Assembly (NCBI GenBank): GCA_021292105.1
Contig: CM037868.1
Coordinates: 3,029,721 to 3,093,720 of the forward strand
Direction: 5' to 3'
Length of the DNA stretch: 64,000 bases
DNA from: Anadara kagoshimensis
Lineage: Eukaryota > Mollusca > Bivalvia > Arcoida > Arcidae
The position numbers and the translations under genes were made by a program. Numbering within the stretch: position 1 is the first letter of the stretch; every line of letters starts with the position of its first letter. Shown here in pieces: positions 25,640 through 53,145 of this stretch. Below the pieces are notes generated by a model that saw only the letters and a program-made list of their open reading frames with translations, searched no databases and was not told the origin of the DNA.

Positions 25640-27300
25640 CTTTAATTTCTGTTGAATCATTTTTTCTTAGCACATGCTATGAGACATTTAAATATGGTGA
25701 TGATTCGAATTCAATTATGAACACAAATGTCTGTATAAAAGTTGAAGGCATACTAGTAAATGGATGTCTTTGTTACGCCAAGTCTGTTGGGGTTTAACGT
25801 GCAATTTAATTTTTTAATTGGATTTAAGTTATTTATTAGCTGCATATGCCAACCCGTCTCCTACAGCTTGATAAATGCACAATGCAGAAATTACACATGT
25901 CTTGACTTAATACTGGTTAACTAAATTATGCCTTAAAATGATAAAATGGCCCACATCTGTAAGTAAGAGTCCTGATACAATATCAGAATGTAAATACTTC
26001 AACGCTGAATTGCAGTAAGAACTTTTATAATAGATAGTATTCAAATCTTTGTTACTCAAAGTGTCATGAGGTATAACATGCACTTTAACTTTATAAAAAA
26101 ACATTGGCTCCATATGTAACAATTGTTCCCTAAAGATAGATAAATGCATAACGCTGATGACTTGACTATATACTAGTTATTTGTTAAAGTTATTAAATAG
26201 CCCACATTTGTAAGCAAGGGACCTTATACAATGTAACAATGTAAATACCTCAGTGCTGATTGCAGTAACTTTTATAATAGATAATATTCAATTTTTTGTT
26301 ACACAAATTATCTTGGGGTTTACCATGCATTTTAACTTTATAATTGGATTTAAAAAATGTATTAGCTGCATATGTAACAATTGTTCCCTAAAAATAGATA
26401 AATGAATAACGCAGATTTTACAGATATCTTAACTTACTGCTAGTAAATAAAACAATTTGTTAAAAATAATAAAATGATGCACATATATAAGTAAGGGCCC
26501 TTATACAGATTAACAATGCAAATATGTAACTACGTACATTAAGGATTATCTATAATATTCAAATCTATCAAAATCTGTCTTTGTTACACAAAGAATATTG
26601 GGGTTTAACATCCACTTTAACTTTATAATTGGATTTAAAAATGCATAAGTTACATATGTAAGAATTCTTCCCTAAAGATAAATAAATACACAACGCAGAT
26701 ATTACTGGTATCTTGACTAAATACTAGTAAATATTATTTTTTAACGTGTTTAAATAACCCGAATATGTAAGTGAGCGTCTCGATACAATATAACAATGCA
26801 AACACTCATTAAGGAGTGTTATAATATATAATTATTATATCAAAGACAATTAAAATATATCTTTGTTACGCAATGGTGTCTAGGGGTTTCACATGCACTT
26901 TAACTTTATAATTGGATTTGCTGCATATGTTACAATTATCCCCTCAAGATAGATGCATATGCATAACACAGACATTACTGAAATCTTGACTAAATACTCG
27001 TAAATAATAGTATTTGTTAAAATGATAAAATAGCCCACATCTGTATGTAAGGGTCCTTATAATATGTAAAAAATGTAAGTAGCTTAACGCTTAATTACAT
27101 TAAGGGGTGTTATATAATAAAATATAATATTTAAATGAATTAAAACATATTTTTGTTACGGGTTTGACATGCAATTTACATCTTTACTATGATTTAAATC
27201 ATTGGTTAGGGCTGCATTTGTGACAAAAATCGTTCCCCAAACCTTAACGATACACTATGTCAATATATTGCAGATATTATGATGACAAAGATGAGACATT
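25640..27300. repeat. ~280-base tandem array, about 5.5 units
   Basis: The anchor 'actttataattggattta', or a variant, begins near 25801, 26080, 26327, 26612, 26895 and 27171 (spacings 279, 247, 285, 283, 276). Each unit also has 'cagtaa', a 'taatagat' block, 'tttgttac', 'ggggttta', 'agctgcatatgtaacaattg' and 'agatagataaatgcataac'. Units are diverged. Any frame inside is composition-driven. Confidence 0.9.
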
Positions 27301-27875: not shown

Positions 27876-28674
27876 TAAAGTAACAAAGATGAATTAATGG
27901 ATGTTAGAACAGTTTATTTATGTGTCCCTGGTAAAAAATATCGTTGTTCCAATGTTTGTTTGTATATGTTTGCATTACAACATTTCTTTTTAAGTTATGA
28001 TATTAATCTTCTCTTAACGAATCTTTACAGTATTAATATTGTTTAGTTGTTCTCATGAATAAACCATGCTTTCCGAGGTAAAATATGAACTGTCAAGTGT
28101 TGATATAGTTTCAGATGATTACATAAAATGATTGTTTCTCTTGGGAATTAACCATGTGAAATTTATTGCATTGGATGAACACGGTGATGGATATTGTTAT
28201 TATTTTCAATAATTGAAATCGCACATTAAACAATATCTCCAAGCAGATATAAAATTAAGTCCTGAATCGAAAAAGGAAACCGAACTCGAATTCTCTAGAC
28301 AGGCGATAGAATGTGGATGTAAAAGAATCTGTTTAAATCTAGAATTTGCACGAAGTCTTTGAATCGAAATTACATACGCTGTATATGTATAGACTTTAAG
28401 TGTTACATTTTCCTATTAATATGGATTATTATGTTGTAATAAGATTCGGAACATGTTCATGCGGGATGCGATATGTAAAAACATACGTTACACATCTTGT
28501 AATAAGACCAATTTGTCAAATAAGCGAGACATTAAAATACAAATAGGAATAAAGATTAAAATAAGTTTTATCAAAATGCACACAAACAAAGTTCGTTAAA
28601 ATTGTTCCCGGCAAATTGAATTTATTGTAAAGAAATTAAATCATTTTGAACTTTATATAATTTCTTTAAAACTA
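27876..28674. other. Non-coding DNA
   Basis: No recognised gene or repeat. Confidence 0.4.
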
Positions 28675-28870
28675 AGGTATACTCCCTCATGCAAAGTATT
28701 TCTTTAGCTCAATTTGGTAACTATATTTTGGTCCTTTGGGTAGCTTTTCAACATCTTCAAAATAATTTTGGTTTCATAATTTTGGTCCAAGCACTACTGA
28801 TGAGGAATTGTATTCCGAAACGGCCGTCTAGTGCTGTAAAATTAAAACTGGTATAGTATGTAATATATAC
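28675..28870 (+). mobile_element. Solo terminal repeat (pLTR) of a Penelope-like element
   Basis: About 195 bases are shared with 31363-31575. Matching blocks are 'tattttggtcctttgggtag', 'cttttcaacatcttc' and 'ggtccaagcactact', then the ribozyme and 'gtaaaattaaa'. At 31 kb the same sequence lies directly after a PLE 3' UTR, which ties this repeat to the PLE family. No coding sequence adjoins this copy. A retrozyme unit, which also carries a hammerhead, is the main alternative. Confidence 0.75.
28790..28835 (+). ncRNA. Type I hammerhead self-cleaving ribozyme, intact
   Basis: All conserved core positions are present in order. Stem I 5' strand AGCACUA (28790-28796). CUGAUGA (28797-28803). Stem II GGAAU/AUUCC closed by a UGU triloop (28804-28816). 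GAAAC (28817-28821). A short GC loop with very short stem III, then GUC (28826-28828). Stem I 3' strand UAGUGCU (28829-28835), which pairs perfectly over 7 bp with the 5' strand. Predicted cleavage is after C28828. The minimal stem III is the form known from animal retrozymes and PLE terminal repeats, often most active as a dimer. Activity is inferred, not seen. Confidence 0.9.
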
Positions 28871-30293: not shown

Positions 30294-31014
30294 AACCCAG
30301 TAAAATGAATAATCTCAAGATTTTAAATGTAGATATATACCAAATTGAGGAAAACAACTAAACTTGAAAAAGTAAATGTGTAGAAAATTAAATAAATGAT
30401 ATATTGGCCAGAAGATATAATATGACACCATCGATGCACTAAGCTACAAACTAGGAGGAGAATAAATATTTATTGAAATAGCAAAGGCACTCAATTAAAA
30501 GGTAATCCGTTTTCAATTGCCGAGTTCTAATCTTGATATATTGAAATATATTTCAACAAATTATTTACGTGTTAGAAAATTAAAATAAACGGACATGTTG
30601 TACAAGAGACTTTTTAATCCATTCATTCTAGTGTCAAAGACGAAAGAAGTTATCTGTTTTCTACTTGTTTGAACAAATATGCAAATCATTATTAATGAGT
30701 CTGGGAATTACAGGAGACGTTCAGACAGAGCAAACTATAAATTTCATGACGATTAATTTAAATATATCCTCCATTGATATGATGCAAGTTTTGTTTTGCG
30801 TCCCTTATTTAGGAGTGGACTTTTCAACTGCAAATATTTGATAAATTAACGTTCACTTGATTGAATCTAGTTTATATCTGGACCATGACGCACACGAAAG
30901 GCTACATTCAGAACTTTTTCTTTTGTAAATTTTCCTTTTCTATGCATCAGTAAAACTGCTTCACCTGCTTATGGTGTGTTTGTTTCCAAACTAATACGCT
31001 ATGGTAGAGCGTGT
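30294..31014. other. AT-rich non-coding DNA
   Basis: No recognised feature. Confidence 0.4.
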
Positions 31015-31362
31015 TCCCAGTACGGGGACTTTGTACAACGAAAAAGGCTGCTTTCAAATCAATTGTTGACGTAGGTATATTTCAAGCCTGTGCTTATCAC
31101 AGCCCTCAAAAAGTTTTATGGCTGGATCGTTTGTGTCCAAGATTGCCCTGGAAGTATTTGACGTCTCATAGTTCCATGTTCCTCTCACTCAAGCTTTATT
31201 ATACACGTGGCGGGTGTAAGTAGCTTACCATTCTGGAGCACCCGGTCACACTTCCCGTATTAAAGTTCACGTGTCTAACCCAACTTGTCAGTTTCAAAGT
31301 GTTTGCTTTCCTTCAGGATTGTGATTCGGACATGGATTAGTATGTTCGTTTTTGATTGAATA
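31015..31362 (+). pseudogene. Penelope-like element: C-terminal codons and 3' UTR
   Basis: In the plus frame LKKFYG (31105-31122) matches the FYGRHH-type C-terminal motif of PLE reverse transcriptases; the RHH part is deleted here. A second piece, SKIALEVFDVS, ends at a stop near 31166. The 3' UTR follows with all its blocks: 'cacgtggcgggtgtaag', 'tctggagcacccggtcacac', 'gattgtgattcggacatgga'. It is 5'-truncated and frame-broken. Confidence 0.75.
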
Positions 31363-31575
31363 TTGAATTACTCTAAAACTAAAGTTTTCCCTCACTTGCC
31401 AATTATTTCCTTGGTTACATTTAGTAAAATGTATTTTGGCACTTTGGGTATCTTTTCAACAGCTTCAGGAAAAGAAATGTGGTTAAATGATTTCGGTCCA
31501 AACACTACTCTCGAGAAATTGCTATTCTTGAATTCGAAAAGGCTGTCTAGTGTTGTAAAATTAAACCTAGTATAA
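31363..31575 (+). mobile_element. PLE terminal repeat (pLTR), decayed
   Basis: It aligns along its whole length with 28675-28870 and lies directly downstream of a PLE 3' UTR. This is the arrangement expected of a 3' terminal repeat. It contains the decayed hammerhead at 31501-31554. Confidence 0.8.
31501..31554 (+). ncRNA. Decayed hammerhead ribozyme with compensated stem I
   Basis: Stem I is AACACUA (31501-31507) with UAGUGUU (31548-31554), perfectly paired over 7 bp. Compared with the intact copy, the second pair has changed from G-C to A-U on both strands. GAAA (31536-31539) and GUC (31545-31547) remain, but CUGAUGA has become CUCUCGA and stem II is enlarged. The core is therefore lost and cleavage is not expected. 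Confidence 0.7.
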
Positions 31576-31579
31576 TATG

Positions 31580-31800
31580 TAAATTAATCAAAAACAAACA
31601 CATTAATCAATGTCCAAACAAAAATATAGAAACAAAGTAAAATCAATTTATGTTAAAACATGAACTTCTACAAGATAATTGAGTTCTGGTGTTTCAGAAA
31701 GCAATTCCTGGTTAGCAAGCTTCACTCGTCACATGAACAGTACAAATTTGGAATGAAAGAAAGATTGAACGATAGGACGTCAAACTTAATTGTTCAGTCT
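31580..31800 (-). mobile_element. Penelope-like element, inverted 3' end beside the pLTR
   Basis: Antisense UTR: 'aaaaacaaacacattaatca', 'agcaagcttcactcgtcac', 'gataggacgtcaaactt'. With 31015-31362 it forms an inverted pair around the pLTR. Confidence 0.7.
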
Positions 31801-32268
31801 TTTTGAACTCGGACATGTCTGTCTGTTTGTTTTTTTAATGTTTAATTTCAAATAAAATTAGCTTGTAGAGATTATATCATACGTCTTGAAAATTGTGACA
31901 TTATACGGAAACAGACAATCTAAATGTGACAATAATATCATATTTGTATTCTATTTTCGATATCTAACGTCTGCAGTACGTCCTGGAAGATTAATATAGA
32001 CATGTAAAAACAAAGAATAATTTTATTAGCATTATTTTTGTGTGATAGATATGGCTATACTCACAAACTTACATACCAATCACACATAATATTTTGATGT
32101 CCCATAGTAATTGCATTTTATTTGATTTTAATCGATCCTGGAACACCAATATGAAATTTTCAGAGGAAAGGAGAAATCTATTGAATTTAAGTTAACAGTG
32201 AATCATGAGTTTATATAGTGTGTGTGTAACATATGCATGGAAATATCAATACAATATAGTTGTTTTTC
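31801..32268. other. AT-rich non-coding DNA
   Basis: No recognised feature. Confidence 0.4.
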
Positions 32269-32545
32269 ACAAAAGTGTGATTGTTTTATAGTTTTTTTAC
32301 ACAAAAGTGTGATTGTTTTATAGTTTTTTTTACACAAAAGTGTGATTGTTTTATAGTTTTTTTTACACAAAAGTGTGATTGTTTTATAGTTTTTTTTACA
32401 CAAAAGTGTGATTGTTTTATAGTTTTTTTTACACAAAAGTGTGATTGTTTTATAGTTTTTTTTACACAAAATTGTGATTGTTTTATAGTTATTTTTTACA
32501 AAATTCTGATTGTTTTATAGTTGTTTTTCTCAAAATTGTGATTGT
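32269..32545. repeat. 33-base minisatellite, about 9 units
   Basis: The unit is 'cacaaaagtgtg' followed by 'attgttttatag' and a T tract. Starts fall at 32300, 32333, 32366, 32399, 32432 and 32465, so the period is 33. The last two units are diverged. Because 33 is a multiple of three, both strands stay open for about 80-88 codons, which is not evidence of a protein. Each unit has a small hairpin CACA-AAAG-TGTG. Confidence 0.95.
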
Positions 32546-32814
32546 TGTAAATAAGTTCCATCTTTATTTTTTTCTTTGATAATTTGTGTTGTATTCGACA
32601 TATGTTTATTTTAAAAATGTATCACTGTGTTTAAAAATAGATCCACACAATGCGACAGTTCAGAGTAATGCGTATAAGGTTAAATATTAGTGTCAACTTA
32701 AATACAACAAATGCAACAATGAATTCGACATATTGAAGTTTTTGGAAAAAAAATAAAATAAAACACAATTGTATTGTAGTGTGTATTTTATTTGAACACC
32801 TGATTGTATCAGGC

Positions 32815-33115: not shown

Positions 33116-33165
33116 AGCACTAGACGGCAGTTTCGGTGAAAAATAATTTAAAAGTGGAAAGTAGT
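33116..33165 (-). ncRNA. Hammerhead relic, 3' half only
   Basis: On the minus strand GAAAC (33134-33130), a short loop, GUC (33125-33123) and stem I UAGUGCU (33122-33116) are intact. The CUGAUGA box and stem II are not recognisable. It is a decayed PLE terminal repeat in antisense. Confidence 0.65.
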
Positions 33166-36350: not shown

Positions 36351-36849
36351 CAACGCCAGTCTCATCTGCCTTATATGATTTCGCGTCGTTAATTTTTGCA
36401 AGTTTTCACAGTTCTCACTTTATGGGGGGACGGTTATGATATGAACATAGTCCAGTACGTTCGTGCTTGATGACAACAGTTTATAAATATTTTGCTTTAA
36501 ATCTTGATAATTCTACTATTCAGCCACTTCTTTTTGATACGTTTTTGTGAGTGATTAGTATGTTTGTTTTTGATTAGTAATATTGTTTATCAAGCTACTA
36601 GTGTTTGGTGAACTACAACTATCACCATCATTCATTTACAGGTATTTGTATATTAACCATGCAAATAACTTGTTTTAAAATATCCAGTTTTTTAGATTAG
36701 GACAAACTTTCTTTTTTCATTAAACACACATTGTTTACGTATAGTGTTAAGTGATAACCAACAAAATGACAACCTTTATAGCAGGTATCTCAGCAAAGAA
36801 CATATATTTGACATCATTTATATTTTAATCTTAATTACATTGCTTGTTG
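36351..36849. other. Non-coding DNA
   Basis: No recognised feature. Confidence 0.4.
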
Positions 36850-36993
36850 ATTTGTTTTTTTTATTCTTATGAAGCAGCATTTATGCAGAACCTTGGTAAA
36901 TCTGGAGAGAAGAATGTCGCCAAATCATTCAACTCAACATACAGATATATAGATGACGTTTTGTCTCTAAACAATCCTAAATTTGGAGACTAT
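36850..36993 (+). pseudogene. Penelope-like reverse transcriptase, palm fragment (YIDD)
   Basis: An open frame of 44 codons (36862-36993) reads YSYEAAFMQNL, then FNSTYRYIDDVLSLNN and PKFGDY. YIDD (36946-36957) is the catalytic aspartate pair of the reverse-transcriptase palm, and the surrounding residues are those of invertebrate PLEs. The protein then stops being continuous: at 36994 the sequence jumps into the 3' UTR, so the thumb and the C-terminal GIY-YIG endonuclease region are absent. It is an internally deleted dead copy. Confidence 0.88.
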
Positions 36994-37180
36994 TTCACAC
37001 AATTTTAATTACACACGTGGCGGGTGTAGCTAGCTAAACAAGAGGTGCTTACCCTTCCGGAGCACCCGGCCTCACTCTCCTGGTGAAAGTTCACGTGTCT
37101 AACCTAACTTGTCAGTTGCAAAGTTTTTACTTTGCTTCTGGATTGTGATTCGGACATGGATTAGTTTGTTTCTTTTTTAT
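36994..37180 (+). mobile_element. Penelope-like element, 3' UTR (best-preserved copy)
   Basis: All UTR blocks are present in order: 'tacacacgtggcgggtgtag', 'ctagctaaacaagaggtgct', 'cttccggagcacccggcctc', 'gttcacgtgtctaacctaac', 'gcaaagtttttactttgctt', 'gattgtgattcggacatgga'. It is fused directly to the palm fragment upstream. Confidence 0.85.
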
Positions 37181-38940
37181 TACAATATGACTATAACTTC
37201 AATATAGCGATATCTCTTCGGTATTTACTCCGAATGATTAATCAATATTAAGCATTGTTCTCAAGATTCTTCTTTGAAAGTAATAAAATATTAAGCTCTT
37301 TCATAGATTTAGATTGTTCGATGTAGCTTTGTTGTGCATTACCAAACAATTTTCTTCCGTTTTGCATTCAATGCTTTGCAGTCATTTCTCGACAGTAAGA
37401 TTTGAAAAATTTCCAGTTTATATAATGGTAATAATGATTCTTTTGCTATATATTAATCAAACATGGGTGAGTTGATTAGTCTTGTCTTAATCTTTTAAAA
37501 GCTTTTCTTGTTGCATGGTATTCAGCGATTTCACTAATATTTGGAAATACACGTCTTCGCTTTCATATAGCAAAGCTGCTTAAAATTATATAATCATCTT
37601 TAATTCCGGAACATAAAGACAAATTGTGAAAAAGCGTAATCCAACCAATACATTTATTAGCATCGGAAAGTGTATAAACGAAAAAAATAAATTCAGTCGG
37701 AAAATCAAAAGCAAAATCACATTTATTGCAAAATTGGTTTAATAAAAGCATCAAAACATTGAAGAAAAATGTCATCAAGATATTTTGTTTACCCTTAATG
37801 GCTAAGATCCTAAAACAGGCTCCATCATTAGGTGATTTTTTAAAAGTTTTAAATACACGTATACTATATAATTCAATATATATTACATTAAAATGTGTAA
37901 GACGCAATTGTTCGTACCAAGATTTAGTCGATAAAAAGGCCAAGTGTAATTACCAAAATAACAAACGAAATAAAGCGTAGACAATGAGCTACATGATATA
38001 GTAATGTTCAATATATTTAATGTCCGTAAAATATGAAGATATAATTTAATATCCAATATCTTTGCCGGCGACAGAGCTTCATCGTTCAAACCATTGACGA
38101 AAACATTTGATAACTTTTCTTGATGCCGAACTTACAAACCTTAATCATATTAAATATATATACAATATTTGGTTGGACATTTGATTTAATTTGTGTGTCG
38201 ATTACACAAACATAAGCATCTGTCTAACCATGTTTCTATTAAATCAAATTTGTATACTAGTTAATGTTTCAAAGTTACATACAGTTTATCATCTGGTGAA
38301 ATTACCATTACAACATTGTTTAAGATATCAATCAAAAGTGTGTCTACATTGTCAAATCGGTACATTATGCTACATTAAACAAAATGAAACAAACAACTGC
38401 TATTAATTTATTTACTTTTATTCATAACAATATGGGCATATTTAGCATAAGCAACATACCACTTCATAAGCAAAATAAACAAAAATAAAACTGACGATTT
38501 TAGTGTCACAAATTTTACGATTATTTTTCAGCAATTAAATCTTACATAACTTTACTCATATTGTCCGGTATTTAAAAATCTGCTGGTATTTTGTCCTTCA
38601 TTGGGTCATGAATATGACAACTCTTTCAACATTTCTATATGAAAACCTTGTTTTAATGTCCCTTTGTTTCAAATTGGAACAAAACAAGATCGTTTTACAA
38701 AATATCTGTCTATAAAGTCCATGTTTCTTAGGTCTTTAGTTTGGTCTTTATATATAAGTCGATCTAACTTGAAACAAACATACCGAACAAAGTTTATATG
38801 AAAATTGTAATCCCAAAAGAAGACTCACATATATCAAAAAATGAAAAAAAAAATAGTTAAACACGTTCACTGTAGTGAATTATAATTTGTATTTATTTCA
38901 TAACAATGATGAAATAAGGATAAATCATCGCTCACAATAA
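37181..38940. other. AT-rich non-coding DNA
   Basis: Contains the longest open frame of the window (37563-37943, minus, 126 codons). It is rich in Phe, Leu and Ile, overlaps another open frame on the plus strand and shows no domain. I see no support for a gene. Confidence 0.45.
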
Positions 38941-53097: not shown

Positions 53098-53145
53098 CAC
53101 TTTATTATGATGAATATTTGTACACCGAAACAGCCGTCTAGTGAA
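53098..53145 (+). ncRNA. Hammerhead relic
   Basis: AUGAUGA (first C of CUGAUGA changed), GAAAC, a four-base loop and GUC (53136-53138), followed by UAGUG, which pairs in part with upstream CACU. Stem II no longer pairs well. The order and spacing match the intact ribozyme, so it is a decayed PLE terminal repeat. Confidence 0.6.

Follow-up and report, generated by a model that had tools for sequence, protein, structure and literature searches.

A type I hammerhead motif of Anadara kagoshimensis in a probable truncated retrozyme copy, and the insertion boundary of its repeat family

The stretch of Anadara kagoshimensis DNA analysed here (the window; 64,000 nucleotides) carries a type I hammerhead ribozyme motif on its forward strand, at 28790–28835. 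The motif is real, and the sequence that holds it (28659–28864, +), which aligns with 206 of the 339 bp of a tandemly repeated unit at 92–93% identity, is very probably (probability about 0.88) a solitary, 5′-truncated, dead-end copy of a metazoan non-LTR retrozyme. Retrozymes are a known class, and this copy is an ordinary one. A first-pass annotation of the window had assigned the motif to a terminal repeat associated with a Penelope-like element (PLE); the source proved instead to be an independent 339-bp tandem retrozyme, of which the window holds the truncated copy.

The hammerhead motif and its repeat family

The first-pass annotation had listed all core elements in order, with a 5-bp stem II and a 7-bp stem I, and each was found in its place, letter for letter. 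The 5′ strand of stem I (AGCACTA, 28790–28796) is followed by the catalytic box CTGATGA (28797–28803) and by stem II (28804–28816), in which GGAAT (28804–28808) and ATTCC (28812–28816) form five pairs around a TGT loop, as folding also indicated. Next come GAAA (28817–28820) and C-GGCC-GTC (28821–28828), which contains the minimal stem III, and the 3′ strand of stem I (TAGTGCT, 28829–28835), which forms seven pairs with AGCACTA in both the sequence and the descriptor scan. Within 28817–28828, the sequence of the minimal stem III, ACGGCCGU, is palindromic over 8 nt and can, in a two-molecule fold, pair from one molecule to the other. Cleavage, which we place after GTC from established hammerhead anatomy, would fall between 28828 and 28829, in agreement with the RNA 5′ end expected at 28829 in the first pass. 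The layout is of type I with a minimal stem III, in line with the first pass: the conserved core and all three helices are present, and stem I is open. Self-cleavage is predicted for it.

Scanned on both strands with a type I descriptor, the window gave 28790–28835 as its sole match. In a simulated control (12 Mb, one strand, same dinucleotide make-up) the descriptor found four matches, one of them with equally long stems, so that the motif by itself is modest evidence. When 111 bases were aligned to the Rfam model Hammerhead_1 (RF00163), all 45 model positions (1–45) were covered at 28.1 bits and an E-value of 1.7e-5; the score is strictly below the gathering cut-off of 34 bits, and so below the above-threshold covariance-model match that the first pass had proposed as a check. 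A scan of the whole window at Rfam gathering thresholds gave no matches, and a hammerhead was absent from the output of a 3-kb Rfam scan at E-values up to 10.

The decisive evidence that the hammerhead is real is genomic repetition. In 1,115,223,567 bases (the 1.1-Gb genome; 36 contigs, both strands), the exact core occurs 4987 times (2524 + 2463) and the reversed-pattern control not once; with stem II left free, the core pattern occurs 6832 times (3441 + 3391). A chance match, or plain satellite DNA devoid of ribozyme function, could draw on the long-stemmed match in the simulation and on the extent of decay, seven contiguous stem I pairs being kept in 61 of 93 copies. Set against the count of cores, the full-length Hammerhead_1 match and the retrotransposition-like ends of the copies described below, this explanation is extremely improbable.

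On contig C1, five cores are spaced 338–339 bp apart in a head-to-tail array of the 339-bp unit, which contains the window's repeat (blast); the units of this array are 98.5–100% identical to a two-unit stretch of it. Exact unit-to-unit junctions number 967 genome-wide (491 + 476). Among the first 100 junction matches listed, the spacing is mostly in runs of 338–340 bp, with one run of 352–368 bp, and contig C3 has one run of at least nine junctions among the matches listed. The unit has a GC content of 33.9%, within the retrozyme range of less than 50%, and is non-coding like other retrozymes, its longest stop-free stretch being 83 aa. A type I hammerhead within the repeat is likewise a retrozyme character, as are tandem repeats of 150–450 bp in many copies, which the family has and of which the window copy is a solitary fragment. 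With its non-coding tandem arrays and thousands of cores, the family bears out animal retrozymes, one of the two comparisons drawn in the first pass. Visual inspection of 100 of the 6832 matches, the first ones listed, for compensatory changes in stem II showed mostly single decay changes, which lends no support to selection in place.

In folding models, the 58-nt window segment taken alone pairs its stem III strand with the core (−13.4 kcal/mol, vs −8.9 kcal/mol for the hammerhead), and two molecules together form a dimeric hammerhead whose stem III is continuous over 8 bp (−36.7 kcal/mol). The hammerhead shape would, in these models, be preferred only with two molecules, via the palindromic stem III. 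The GGCC loop is conserved in 58 of 93 copies, and 59 have self-complementary loops. The gain in pairing energy is not unusual, being equalled in 54 of 200 shuffles, so that dimer action is argued from the specific structure and from a published amphibian precedent (PMC7229834). For the unit folded as a circle, 31 of 60 mononucleotide shuffles were equally stable.

Blast of the window found no second unit beside the copy at 28659–28864. Because a lone unit with one cleavage site should be unable to release a circle, the circular reads proposed in the first pass seem ill-suited to this locus, and the description of the motif as the most functional-looking element of the window fits a lone truncated unit poorly. 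The hammerhead is unlikely to act by itself from here. As the first pass had observed, the surrounding repeat recurs at 31 kb: an older copy, 75% identical to the unit, lies at 31366 to 31585 or 31587 (+), directly behind sequence ending at 31357 (blast). Its core is broken, with CTCTCGA replacing CTGATGA, and Rfam gave no hammerhead match in it. Blast also detected retrozyme scraps that include part of the hammerhead, at 33136–33110 (−, 27 bp) and 53108–53143 (36 bp). The window holds other tandem repeats as well: at 32259–32555, a 33-bp repeat in seven overlapping 99-nt registers, the middle ones 99–100% identical, with ACACAAAAGTGT inside most units; and, at 26020–27195, a diverged repeat with a period of about 250–290 bp and 3–5 copies.

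Ends of the inserted copies

Copies were aligned outwards from the hammerhead to find their ends at 93 sites, namely the window and 92 of the first 100 core matches listed (C1, 0.29–18.6 Mb, L001–L090). At 83 sites the copy is 3′-terminal, with no unit behind it, and at ten a further unit follows; merging duplicated loci reduced the 83 to 73 independent 3′ flanks. The sample comes from one chromosome and was selected by exact core and stem II, a choice biased towards recent copies and towards 3′ ends no earlier than the cleavage site, with copies ending before it excluded. In it, 58 of the 73 insertions end at unit position 339–349 (56 of them at 342–349) and the remaining 15 at 311–338. The common boundary is thus about 38 nt past the predicted cleavage site (306/307). 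None of the 73 ends at 304–309, though the search would have detected a copy that stopped exactly at the cleavage site. Among 44 pieces lacking the exact pattern (partly overlapping, some counted twice), 30 end at 331–349 and 14 elsewhere. In the locus alignments the 3′ tail of the window copy (28836–28864, +), which ends ...TATGTAAT, stops at this common boundary of the family.

The 5′ ends, on the other side, are scattered across the unit. Length exceeds 345 nt in ten of the 71 copies that could be measured, and in a single copy (L075) the 5′ end coincides with the 5′ end that cleavage would make. A fixed 3′ end combined with variable 5′ truncation is the product of primed reverse transcription. 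As the cleavage site lies uninterrupted within the copies, the RNA that was copied had probably been circular or an uncleaved multimer, with synthesis apparently starting about 38 nt beyond this site and not at an RNA end made by cleavage.

LINE/SINE insertion likewise gives a fixed 3′ end and variable 5′ truncation. The retrozyme might accordingly have a true transcript 3′ end, produced by termination or RNA cleavage at TATGTAATT, and be copied by a LINE-type enzyme; the one clear target-site duplication among the 93 copies (L012, 32 bp) would fit. However, the boundary is internal to the repeating unit, intact array units continue through it, duplications are otherwise unclear, and no poly-A or simple-repeat tail was seen by eye behind the copies. 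We regard copying by a LINE-type enzyme as a serious but rather doubtful alternative.

Target-site duplications of metazoan retrozymes, where they occur, exceed 4 bp; in the present set most copies show none. Flank-to-flank matches of at least 8 bases were found in 25 of 93 copies (11.4 expected) and of at least 11 bases in five, L012 included (0.6 expected), with many of the matches lying away from the copy ends and array-internal units forming part of the set. At the junctions (20 nt, 64 copies), A+T was 0.69 on the 3′ side and 0.71 on the 5′ side, compared with 0.67 in the background, values close enough to background that a strong target preference of PLE type is not evident.

Penelope-type elements near and apart from the retrozyme

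The sequence before the 31-kb copy comprises the 3′ end and 3′ UTR of a reverse transcriptase (RT) element, here termed E (30915–31357, +), recognised by blast and RT comparison. An inverted E fragment (31585–31784, −; blast) touches the 3′ end of the 31-kb copy, and another fragment (36838–37182), about 92% identical to the E copy L002, has a readable YRYIDD stretch that an internal deletion has fused to the 3′ UTR. L002 encodes a 173-aa RT stretch with 5640 relatives at E-values up to 0.001, the closest named relative, at 79%, being from Tegillarca granosa. In a profile alignment (hhalign) that set 14 relatives of the E RT against PLE alone among RT classes, the RT of the GIY-YIG PLE L092 matched over 206 columns (29% identity, probability 88%, E 3.4e-6), which argues that E is probably a Penelope-type element, as the first pass had proposed for the sequence before 31361. 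We also take the RT motifs of E (PKLHK and others) to be Penelope-type. As to a GIY-YIG endonuclease in E, the L002 frame ends behind the RT tail and Pfam detected no domain in this fragment, from an element recovered in part upstream of the RT; among six relatives, Pfam matched RVT_1 in three, each time below its cut-off. PDB searches found no RT relative, and the predicted structure of the E RT was poor (pLDDT 54). Among the matches listed (40 and 50), GIY-YIG and E places showed no overlap by eye.

The contact at 31 kb had been read in the first pass as linking ribozyme and PLE. With 31 blast hits across the 64 kb of the window, E pieces are so dense that this contact is weak evidence. Contacts were compared with 500 random placements for 76 copies, left after 17 duplicate or array-internal sites were dropped by hand, in counts that exclude both the 31-kb copy and L014 (which adjoins a short second tail missed by blast): the retrozyme 5′ end followed an E tail of the same strand at a distance of at most 25 nt in three of the 76 (0.59 expected; 10 of 500 draws as high), an inverted E contact at the 3′ end was found once (1.1 expected; 348 of 500), and any E boundary lay at most 12 nt from the 5′ end in five (2.9 expected; 68 of 500). 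Template-switching chimeras of E and retrozyme (L033, L051, L007) were considered and dropped, boundary contacts not being clearly enriched in the last of these counts. As a separate observation, at L089 a run of ~45-bp repeats derived from an inverted E tail stops right at the retrozyme copy.

These contacts bear on the possibility that the hammerhead is part of a PLE pseudo-LTR and that the retrozyme-like repeat is that terminal repeat in tandem. A Penelope-type tail stands directly before the 31-kb copy, and four other diverged copies (L007, L014, L024, L081) lie behind such tails. On the other hand, the 339-bp units run head to tail with no ORF between them, and do not flank an ORF for RT, and usually GIY-YIG, as the repeats of a PLE would; same-strand contact with E tails is rare in the counts above; and the GIY-YIG PLE L092 has a different hammerhead-like motif. 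On the parts of E recovered here, from its RT and 3′ UTR, we consider a pseudo-LTR origin very unlikely, and return to the independent retrozyme.

In L092 (G000:C15:54986100-54990400), Pfam detects RVT_1 and GIY-YIG in an open frame of 762 aa, and a further frame of 267 aa lies upstream; the element faces an inverted second copy (648 bp matching, 97%) and lies beside an AT repeat. At 79 nt past its stop codon is the motif CTGAAGA...GAAAGTAC, with a 6-bp stem I and a palindromic AGUACU, which on our own reading would be a minimal hammerhead distinct from that of the retrozyme. Rfam gave no match to this motif, which occurs in fifteen exact copies in the genome and, taken twice, folds into a hammerhead dimer. 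Among 40 genome matches spanning the motif, 38 end 40–74 nt past its predicted cleavage site, at ends blurred by the AT repeat, and the other two (its own locus and one 92% identical) reach the end of the query. The boundary geometry of the retrozyme appears similar to that of this one GIY-YIG PLE, in that both end past their own hammerhead or hammerhead-like motif. The resemblance is circumstantial, and it is the best reason found here for supposing that PLE enzymes move retrozymes.

Known relatives and a possible mode of spread

Mytilus galloprovincialis has about 5000 type I hammerheads in 350–390 bp repeats that are expressed as circles (Cervera and de la Peña 2020, PMC7229834). The Anadara family resembles these retrozymes, as portrayed there, in its type I hammerhead, tandem repeats, ~5000 copies, low GC content and non-coding unit; it differs in its 339-bp unit, and is known here from DNA alone. 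A fixed boundary past the cleavage site, as seen here, is not described for the Mytilus retrozymes in the text available from that source, and stem III, being weak and palindromic, is nearer to that of the axolotl hammerhead reported in it than to Mytilus (PMC7229834). Work in print reports retrozyme circles in mussel tissue and closure of RNA by the RtcB ligase in vitro; unlike the self-paired circles it describes, the circular unit here is no more stable than shuffles.

The HHR_Amex1 hammerhead of newt and axolotl, described in the same paper, resembles the present motif in that its stem III is very weak and closed by a palindromic tetraloop, and it works better as a dimer (PMC7229834). The stem III here, unlike that of HHR_Amex1, has two pairs, and the host is another. 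Published work places most canonical type I animal hammerheads in retrozymes, and its authors name PLEs as no more than strong candidates for mobilising them (PMC7229834, PMC7761336).

From PLEs the retrozyme differs in having neither RT nor GIY-YIG, and in a hammerhead sequence distinct from the PLE motif of this genome. Minimal hammerheads of Penelope-like elements were reportedly described by Cervera and de la Peña in 2014. The type I layout is common to those hammerheads, to the Anolis element PAc (PMC11167929) and to the motif studied here. For PAc, that report places an internal start of reverse transcription 111–118 bp into the ORF, past the cut site at 26, with reverse transcription mainly on unprocessed RNA (PMC11167929). 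Here too, reverse transcription would start downstream of the hammerhead on RNA uncut there; the distance from cleavage site to start is larger in PAc (26 to 111–118 bp) than the ~38 nt seen here.

In the scheme that we propose, the master loci would be the tandem arrays of the 339-bp non-coding unit, and their transcripts would carry one hammerhead per unit. Neighbouring hammerheads may pair by the palindromic stem III and cleave as dimers, and the released units may be circularised by a host ligase. A reverse transcriptase, most likely a PLE's, would always begin from one internal position, ~38 nt beyond the cleavage site, and its template would be RNA still intact at the cleavage site, either a circle or an uncleaved multimer. 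It would copy a variable distance, sometimes more than one round, and leave 5′-truncated copies such as 28659–28864. That animal retrozymes are moved by Penelope-like enzymes in this manner, through internal initiation within circular or uncut RNA, ~38 nt downstream of the hammerhead, and possibly over more than one round, is a tentative suggestion to which we give somewhat less than even odds.

A literature search for the insertion ends of animal retrozymes, at the level of titles and opening lines of abstracts, found no paper, in a coverage that took in few subscription journals and leaves the absence of such work unproven. The insertion boundary is the part of the present case worth following. 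If the proposal is true, the fixed boundary would be the footprint of a PLE start site, and would name the long-sought partner of metazoan retrozymes. The question of mobilisation becomes testable in this genome, which combines some 5000 cores and near-identical arrays with a PLE whose RT/GIY-YIG frame is open, and in which the sampled retrozyme insertions resemble PLE insertions in boundary geometry: a test would involve a single enzyme, a single RNA and a single predicted start.
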